Source: a virus
DNA: 28,041 bases
Direction: 5' to 3' (one strand)
Virus record (IMG/VR): IMGVR_UViG_3300001533_002754
Coordinates: 2,200 to 30,240 of that record
In this document: positions 16,936 through 23,925 of the stretch, piece by piece
Numbering within the stretch: the first letter of the stretch is position 1
Layout of the letters: each line of letters opens with the position of its first letter
Made by a program: the position numbers and the translations under genes
The notes under the pieces: generated by a model
Databases searched by the model: none
What the model saw: the letters and a program-made list of their open reading frames with translations, nothing else
What the model was told of the DNA's origin: nothing

Positions 16936-19284
16936 CTAGAAATCTATATCATTTTCTAATATTTTTTCTATCTCTGTATCAATTAATATTTTTTCTATAT
17001 CAGTAGTTTCTATATCTATTATATCATAATTTTTATCAGTTATGAACTGGTCGTAACTTCTACAGGTTCCTAAATCTGCATAAGTCCAAACCATAACTCT
17101 ATTCAACTTACCCCTTCTAACTTTATAAATATGATAAATCCTATTAGGCTTTTTATAAAAACCATTGTTTAGTATATGTTCCACACACTCATAATCTTTT
17201 TTAGTAGGCTCTAAAACTATAACTCCAACATCTAATTTATCTGCTATAGCCTTACTACCTCTAAGTAGATTCTGATTTTTATTCTTACTGCTCTCCCAAT
17301 CTCCGTTTAGTTGAGAGCTAGTGCTGAAATGAATTTTTAAATTATTACATAAAAACTTCATTCTTTCGGCAAATATATATAGCACATTGTCCTCTCTAAG
17401 CCTCATACCTTTTGTCTTCTGTGCAATTTCTGTAAGCATCTTAACAGATGTGAATATATAATCAAAATATACATATCCTATATTATGTTCCAGTTTATAC
17501 TTTTTAACAGTTCTCTCTATGTCTTCGATATTAAAATTTGGTATTTGCTCTATCCACAGAGACGATGCTTCTATTAATTCTATTGCCTTGTCAATCCTTC
17601 GCTCCTCTTCTTTTGTATAGCTTCCTTTTAATATCTTAGCCTCATTAACATCTGATATAAACGCTATCATCATTGTCTGTATTTCATCAGGAGCTAATTC
17701 AGTAGAAATAAAAAGAGTAGGTTCTTTTAGGTTATAGTCAACCCAACTATTAGCTTCAGAATCGTATAAAACCCCAACAGAAGCTAGACATGCATCTCCA
17801 ACTGAATAACGAGTGTTATGAGTTACTATAAAATCATTCATTAAAAATAAGTGAGAAACATTATCAACAGTAAAACAAGTCATTTCAACAAACTTCCCAG
17901 TTTTCTTTATATCTTCTATGTGTATATAGTCTTTCTTTTCAAGAAGACACTTAAGTGTATACACATCTCTTTCGTCTTGTTTAAATGTGGCAACCATACC
18001 TAAACTATTGCACAATTTAACAATACTTTCAACCATTTTACTGCTCGTAGTAATAAAGCTAGCGAATCCTTCTTCATCAATATTTTCATTTGCATCTAAC
18101 AACCCCTGGAAGAGAGATTGTCTTTGACTAACACTTCCTAATAAATACTCTTCAGGAATGAAAATTTCATAAGAATCTTTATTCCGAAGATTAAAATATT
18201 CCAACTTCACATCATCATATCTAAAATCGCTATTTCCTATTATTAGCCCCATTGAGTATGGAGAAACTAGATACTCTCTCTCTGGATATTCTACAGGCTT
18301 ATTTAAAGGTATTTTAAACTTGTATTGCATAGCTTTAAATCCTCCGGCTCTTAAAGACCTTTCTTGTATAGTTTTAGTGTCTTCAACTCTCACTACACCT
18401 CTATCATAATACTGCCATAGATGTTCCTCGCAACATTCTGCCACTCTACCATCTTTAAGATAAACCTCATATATCTCTTTTTTTTCTTTTTGAGGATGAA
18501 CTTGTATTACTTTTACTGGTTTTCCGTCATCTCCAAATATGTAGTCTCCTTTTTTTATATCTCCTACCATTTTATCCCCATCAGGTGTTGGAATGATTGT
18601 AGTATTTGGGATTGCTTTACCTCCACCACTTTCAGAAGATCTCATATACAGCTTTTTAATTCTAGCTCCTCTTATTATAGTGTTATACATATGTCCGTTT
18701 ACTGGCACGCCCATCTCTGGCACTTTCTTTAACTCTTCTTTTAAGTCTTTCATACCTTTAGCGGCTTGATGTCCTATTTGCCCCTCTTCCTCATAATGAT
18801 TAGTTTTTATTTCCAATATTTTTTTATCGTAATAATCTATTATGTCTTGTACTGTTGATTCATTAAATCTCTTTTGTATTTCTTCCTGCAGTTTGAAGTC
18901 TAATATATCCTCATCATAAAAATAAGATATATCAAACCCTTTTTTCTTTATTTCTCTAAGTACAGTATATTTTTTTAGTATTTTATAATTATACTCAAAA
19001 TTCTCAAAAGAGCTTATTTCTATAATCTTTTCTACATATTCGAACCCATTATTGTCGCAAAATGTCTTGTATTGTTTTTCATATTTACTTATAAACTCGT
19101 CTAAAATTATGGGATCTATTTTTTTTACTCCGTTCATAATTAAATTATTAATAGAGCCAAATACTATTTTATGAAATTTTTCAGAAAAATCATCAATAGT
19201 TATCTTGTAATTTTCATCAAGTATTAAATCTGGCTTTTTGATTAAACATCCTAAAACTTCAATAGTAGCTGTTTTATCATACAT
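16936..19284 (-). CDS. dnaB: DnaB-type replicative helicase precursor, intein-containing
   Basis: This encodes a 782-aa precursor. The N-terminal DnaB domain (about 1-150; TIEVLGCLIKKPDLI) is followed by a RecA-like helicase domain whose Walker A, SESGGGK|T, is split between Lys and Thr by an intein (residues 224-490). After removal, the extein is about 515 aa, normal for DnaB. C-terminal motifs include LFISTELAPDEIQTMM (H1a), VYFDYIFTS (Walker B) and an SSQLNGDWESSKNKN stretch (H3). The host's DnaB role is replaced or supplemented. Until spliced, the ATPase cannot form. ATG 19284 is chosen over TTG 19290 because AAGGAAG is six bases from the ATG and abuts the TTG. The primase follows directly. 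Confidence 0.93.
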   Translation of the reverse strand: MYDKTATIEVLGCLIKKPDLILDENYKITIDDFSEKFHKIVFGSINNLIMNGVKKIDPIILDEFISKYEKQYKTFCDNNGFEYVEKIIEISSFENFEYNYKILKKYTVLREIKKKGFDISYFYDEDILDFKLQEEIQKRFNESTVQDIIDYYDKKILEIKTNHYEEEGQIGHQAAKGMKDLKEELKKVPEMGVPVNGHMYNTIIRGARIKKLYMRSSESGGGKAIPNTTIIPTPDGDKMVGDIKKGDYIFGDDGKPVKVIQVHPQKEKKEIYEVYLKDGRVAECCEEHLWQYYDRGVVRVEDTKTIQERSLRAGGFKAMQYKFKIPLNKPVEYPEREYLVSPYSMGLIIGNSDFRYDDVKLEYFNLRNKDSYEIFIPEEYLLGSVSQRQSLFQGLLDANENIDEEGFASFITTSSKMVESIVKLCNSLGMVATFKQDERDVYTLKCLLEKKDYIHIEDIKKTGKFVEMTCFTVDNVSHLFLMNDFIVTHNTRYSVGDACLASVGVLYDSEANSWVDYNLKEPTLFISTELAPDEIQTMMIAFISDVNEAKILKGSYTKEEERRIDKAIELIEASSLWIEQIPNFNIEDIERTVKKYKLEHNIGYVYFDYIFTSVKMLTEIAQKTKGMRLREDNVLYIFAERMKFLCNNLKIHFSTSSQLNGDWESSKNKNQNLLRGSKAIADKLDVGVIVLEPTKKDYECVEHILNNGFYKKPNRIYHIYKVRRGKLNRVMVWTYADLGTCRSYDQFITDKNYDIIDIETTDIEKILIDTEIEKILENDIDF
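17815..18615 (-). other. Class 3 intein in DnaB Walker A motif
   Basis: A 267-aa intein lies between GGGK and T of the P-loop. It starts with Ala (AIPNTTIIPTPDGDK), not Cys or Ser. Block B reads EEHLW with His288 and Trp290. Block F reads MTCFTVDN with Cys470. It ends VTHN (Asn490) before Thr491. Trp, Cys and +1 Thr form the WCT set that defines class 3 inteins, in which the block F Cys makes the first attack. Two weak LAGLIDADG-like segments (YSMGLIIGNSDF and LFQGLLDANENID) remain in the middle. They lack the usual spaced acidic and Gly residues, so the homing endonuclease looks decayed. Confidence 0.9.
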
Positions 19285-19298
19285 TCGCAACTTCCTTT

Positions 19299-23579: not shown

Positions 23580-23651
23580 AAATTACCCTGCTAACATAAA
23601 TCTATAAAAATCTATAAATTTAAGATTCTTGTTGTTTCTTCGTATCCTATT

Positions 23652-23925
23652 TCAATTTATAAATAAATCTACTTTAGTTTGATATAATACTCCACAACCG
23701 TAATTTTCTACCTTGCCAGCCGTATGCACATACATTTGCTTTTTAATTTGCAATTTTGTATATTTCACACTCTCTTTCTGTTCTAATATTTCTTAGTCTT
23801 CTATGCATACGCTGTATTCTTAATTTATTCTTTTCTATAATCGATGATTTGTTAGCAGTTTCACCACCTTTCTTTTTAATTTTTTCTCTAATTTCTTAAT
23901 TTTATTTGTTTTATCAAAACTTAGC
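23652..23925 (-). pseudogene. tnpB: IS605-family TnpB fragments (frameshifted, internally deleted)
   Basis: This fills most of the 437-bp gap between the 69-aa gene and nrdD. The minus strand reads KTNKIKKLEKKLKRK, then in another frame KKGGETANKSSIIEK and KLRIQRMHRRLRNIRTE. This is the Lys/Arg-rich central part of TnpB that precedes its first catalytic segment. A short later piece (YVHTAGKVENYGCG) may be the C-terminal tail. The N-terminal half and all RuvC and zinc-ribbon parts are missing. The hairpin repeat copy B is joined directly to its start, marking a deletion junction. Confidence 0.8.

Follow-up and report, generated by a model that had tools for sequence, protein, structure and literature searches.

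What enables an intein that begins with alanine to splice, and what keeps it in an essential position once its homing endonuclease has decayed, are the questions raised by the replicative helicase gene of the phage DNA analyzed here. The window, as we call the whole stretch that was analyzed, is 28,041 nucleotides long and forms a portion of a viral record of 30,240 bases. We consider it very probable that the element in this gene is a class 3 intein of an SPbeta-like phage DnaB that is now immobile and is held because DnaB needs splicing.

The interrupted gene is an open reading frame on the minus strand (16936 to 19290) that was assigned to the DnaB-type replicative helicases through Pfam, NCBIfam, and PHROG matches and is kin to YorI of SPbeta. 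It matched the N-terminal (DnaB, 7e-8) and C-terminal (DnaB_C, 7e-16) domain families of Pfam and PHROG 19, “DnaB-like replicative helicase” (2.5e-45); matches to Pfam CNOT1_HEAT and DUF899 were under the cut-off and were disregarded. The frame starts with TTG, and an alternative ATG two codons further in has the better-placed Shine-Dalgarno sequence. The precursor has 784 amino acids, of which 517 remain when the intein is subtracted, and the best annotated kin of the exteins are SPbeta-group helicases, at ~40% identity. The gene adjoins those for a primase, a RecJ-like nuclease, and a YorL-type DNA polymerase that is 44% identical to the SPbeta enzyme, which is the context of DnaB in SPbeta-like phages, and the replication genes around the helicase are full length. 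The SPbeta-like genes point to a Firmicute host, and the presence of an NrdD gene suggests that this host is an anaerobe.

Downstream of the NrdD gene, at positions 23629 to 23698 on the minus strand, we also noted a strong match to the RAGATH-18 RNA (Rfam RF03064, 67.3 bits). RAGATH-18 has been reported to act as the guide scaffold of IS607 TnpB nucleases (PMC11061315). No TnpB open reading frame adjoins the RNA in the window; the frames upstream resemble a decayed TnpB by eye, although a search for TnpB in that region gave no Pfam match and one fragment had no counterpart in phages by tblastn. Enterocloster phage CB457P1 has a stretch with 72.7% identity.

A sequence-only reading of this DNA had placed an intein at positions 17815 to 18615, within the P-loop of DnaB, and both its coordinates and its location proved exact. 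With borders taken from the open frame and from an alignment with 79 homologous inteins, the element is 267 amino acids long, is encoded on the minus strand, and lies precisely between Lys225 and Thr493 of the Walker A motif (GK^T). It comprises residues 226 to 492 of the frame counted from TTG, which are residues 224 to 490 when numbering starts at the ATG, as it did in that reading. The frame is open throughout, and the flanking extein sequences can be aligned with intein-free helicases. Because the Walker A Thr is the first residue of the C-extein (Thr +1, or G:8; 17812 to 17814, minus strand), where it would also serve as the second branch point, a complete ATP site is to be expected only once the intein has been removed, and splicing should therefore be required for the helicase to acquire it. 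The position implies no more than this; the sequence-only reading went further in proposing that splicing controls formation of the site and that the element is fixed.

The residues expected of a class 3 intein are all present. Residue 1 is Ala (block A, codon GCA; 18613 to 18615, minus strand), so that the N-terminal junction has no Cys, Ser, or Thr nucleophile. Block B contains HLW (18415 to 18423, minus strand), with His at B:10 and Trp67 of the intein at B:12 (codon 18415 to 18417); both are conserved in relatives. Cys247, the presumed initiating nucleophile, occupies F:4 (17875 to 17877, minus strand), and block G ends in THN (17815 to 17823, minus strand), in which Thr265, within VTHN, is G:5, followed by His G:6 and Asn G:7 (codon 17815 to 17817). 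The sequence-only reading had taken Thr +1 to be the third member of the Trp-Cys-Thr (WCT) set. Since the triplet is defined as Trp B:12, Cys F:4, and Thr G:5 (PMC5222942, PMC3196547), the true Thr is the one at G:5 (Thr490 from the TTG; Thr488 in the earlier numbering), and the class is unaffected by this correction because G:5 and +1 are both Thr.

Checked against the 79 homologous inteins, the block F Cys at position 4 and the block B Trp were both in place. All of them had His B:10, Cys F:4, His G:6, and Asn G:7 (79/79), and exceptions were confined to Thr G:5 (present in 78/79) and Trp B:12 (77/79); with key residues so nearly invariant the signature is not a matter of chance. These counts also bear on a class 2-type route, in which Cys F:4 would be incidental and the direct attack on the N-terminal junction would come from Thr +1. 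Class 2 inteins likewise lack a nucleophile at residue 1, and inteins bearing the class 3 signature could in principle use either pathway (PMC5222942), but the window intein has the full WCT set, belongs to a lineage in which Cys F:4 is present in 79/79, and resembles in its signature three inteins, all of those tested, in which Cys F:4 was needed (PMC5222942). We regard the class 2 route as very unlikely.

The fold agrees with the class 3 assignment. An AlphaFold2 model of the intein (mean pLDDT 93.4, pTM 0.89) has the HINT fold, and the top mini-intein alignments of its splicing half were to mycobacterial class 3 DnaB inteins (6RIY and 6BS8): Z was 19.4 both for the Mycobacterium chimaera inteins 6RIX and 6RIY (rmsd 1.9 to 2.1; 1.9 for 6RIY) and for the M. 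smegmatis intein 6BS8 (rmsd 1.6). The whole-length model matched PI-SceI with a Z of 22. Sequence signature and fold together thus bore out the proposed class.

By the mechanism known for class 3 inteins (PMC5222942, PMC7664689), Cys F:4 would act together with His B:10 and Thr G:5 in a direct attack on the bond between Lys and Ala1, and the acyl group would then be transferred to Thr +1. The last Asn (G:7) would cyclize and the extein halves would be joined, which would bring GK and T together in the Walker A motif.

The suggestion that a case in a Firmicute phage widens the range of class 3 inteins did not hold. In scans of IMG/VR, the GK^T site proved to hold a class 3 intein in at least 17 further SPbeta-like DnaB loci, among them a few near-duplicates (for example, L083/L084), and ~50 DnaB loci were intein-free. 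On the intein tree, the window fell inside a DnaB clade (15 rows, support 95/96) on a long branch (0.92), and the sister of this clade was a pair of inteins from Staphylococcus phage CF5 and Lactococcus phage 949 (99/89). A survey in 2020 had catalogued 1701 class 3 inteins, 82.5% of them with LAGLIDADG motifs (PMC7891396), and a class 3 intein in the P-loop of mycobacterial DnaB has been described (PMC6195587). Given these relatives and precedents, neither the class, nor the site, nor the host range is new; a wider host range as a novelty is ruled out, the same and sister lineages being already present in Firmicute phages and IMG/VR. A quick tree built from the exteins showed clustering of intein-bearing and intein-free sites, though not as a single clade; at least two changes are required, which is the pattern expected of an element gained or lost more than once.

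The closest counterparts, in the SPbeta-like loci (L081-L094, L100, L102, and L060-L065), share the extein, the site, and the class signature with the window intein and are mostly 41 to 52% identical to it, with 34 to 36% for the two most distant. The mycobacterial DnaBi1 and MchDnaB1 inteins (6BS8, 6RIX, and 6RIY) resemble it in class, P-loop location, fold, Ala1, and WCT set (PMC6195587, PMC7664689). Unlike it, they are mini-inteins of 139 to 145 amino acids that lack an endonuclease domain and have DxxH rather than CxxH in block B, and the M. smegmatis intein has Ser instead of Thr at +1. The class 3-like inteins of CF5 and 949 also come from Firmicute phages and have Ala1, Cys F:4, THN, and the GK^T site, but they reside in other host proteins (an RNA ligase in CF5), have Ile in place of Trp B:12, and retain intact endonuclease motifs. 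An insert in Enterocloster phage CB473P1 was rejected as a relative of the same class, as it starts with Cys and its blocks A, B, and G could not be aligned.

Two of the same-site DnaB inteins, those of L060 (4001 to 5077) and L089 (3001 to 4080), have Cys at residue 1 in addition to the class 3 Trp and Cys, with Ser at G:5 in L089, and so combine the signatures of classes 1 and 3. Inteins with such mixed motifs were reportedly described by Tori and Perler in 2011, so this combination is probably not new. In other related phages, DnaB is split by an insert of ~1.0 to 1.2 kb at other, more C-terminal places (L053, 4001 to 6697; L054, 1162 to 3866; L055, 4001 to 6503; L056, 2428 to 4927; L057, 4001 to 6621); an Rfam search of the inserts in L053, L054, L055, and L057 gave no match at the gathering level.

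The endonuclease of the window intein had been called vestigial, a description that the alignment supported. The remnant of a LAGLIDADG homing endonuclease (approximately 17944 to 18276, minus strand; Pfam Hom_end, 8e-5), delimited by the alignment and a deletion map, has IGNS in place of LGDG and DANE in place of DTDG, so that the catalytic Asp is replaced by Asn at both intein residue 128 and intein residue 176, positions at which 77/79 and 75/79 relatives have Asp. About 90 endonuclease residues have been deleted, ~50 to 60 of them after residue 135 and ~28 to 35 near residues 215 to 224, making this intein the shortest of the 80 (the others have 303 to 374 amino acids). By comparison, the 17 same-site inteins have 354 to 371 amino acids, and 16 of them retain both LGDG and D(T/A)DG. 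A same-site intein in L065/L137 also has a damaged endonuclease, with LSDA and DAKG for LGDG and DTDG, and its decay appears to be independent.

With neither catalytic Asp and without a full-length domain, the enzyme is probably dead, judging from its sequence. That the remnant might still be active, or that the intein might be mobilized in trans by the enzyme of another phage, is brought to mind by the same-site relatives in related phages whose endonucleases are apparently intact. The missing Asp residues and the ~90-residue loss speak against the first of these, and the second, possible in itself, was without a supporting sign in this analysis; we consider either extremely improbable.

The two halves of the intein have diverged at different rates. 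The mean identity of the splicing domain to the 15 other clade members was 0.61 (0.59 within the clade), whereas that of the endonuclease was 0.43 (0.58 within the clade), and the residual of the window intein, -0.17, was the largest negative one among the 16 clade members. Faster divergence of the endonuclease matches the prediction of relaxed constraint on the endonuclease with constraint on splicing kept. The same comparison bears on whether the whole intein is inactive, in a decaying phage fragment, as in the Arthrobacter pseudogene Arth_1007. The long branch, the dead endonuclease, and the origin of the window in a 30-kb fragment would fit such a history. However, Arth_1007 has lost Cys F:4 and His B:10 (PMC3196547), both of which the window intein keeps, and here the splicing domain is as conserved as that of relatives, the frame is open, the catalytic residues are intact, and the replication genes alongside are full length, which makes inactivity a very unlikely explanation.

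We therefore favor an intein that still splices. The LAGLIDADG endonuclease would formerly have spread it by homing and would have been killed by active-site substitution and deletion. With that enzyme dead, the intein would now be passed on with the helicase gene and be kept solely by the need for splicing. Because the endonuclease remnant is still confidently folded in the model (most blocks >85), it may have a structural role. A further step, in which the dead endonuclease tunes splicing as a structured part, or a conserved Cys pair near block B (ECCEEHLW) makes splicing redox sensitive, so that the intein acts as a replication switch, seems to us unlikely.

The general picture of class 3 inteins is unchanged by this case, which could be of use in splicing studies as a naturally reduced intein. 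It offers a clear snapshot of the intein life cycle within class 3, in which mobility would have been lost with the splicing residues intact, while the same helicase site in other SPbeta-like phages holds inteins that are apparently still mobile.
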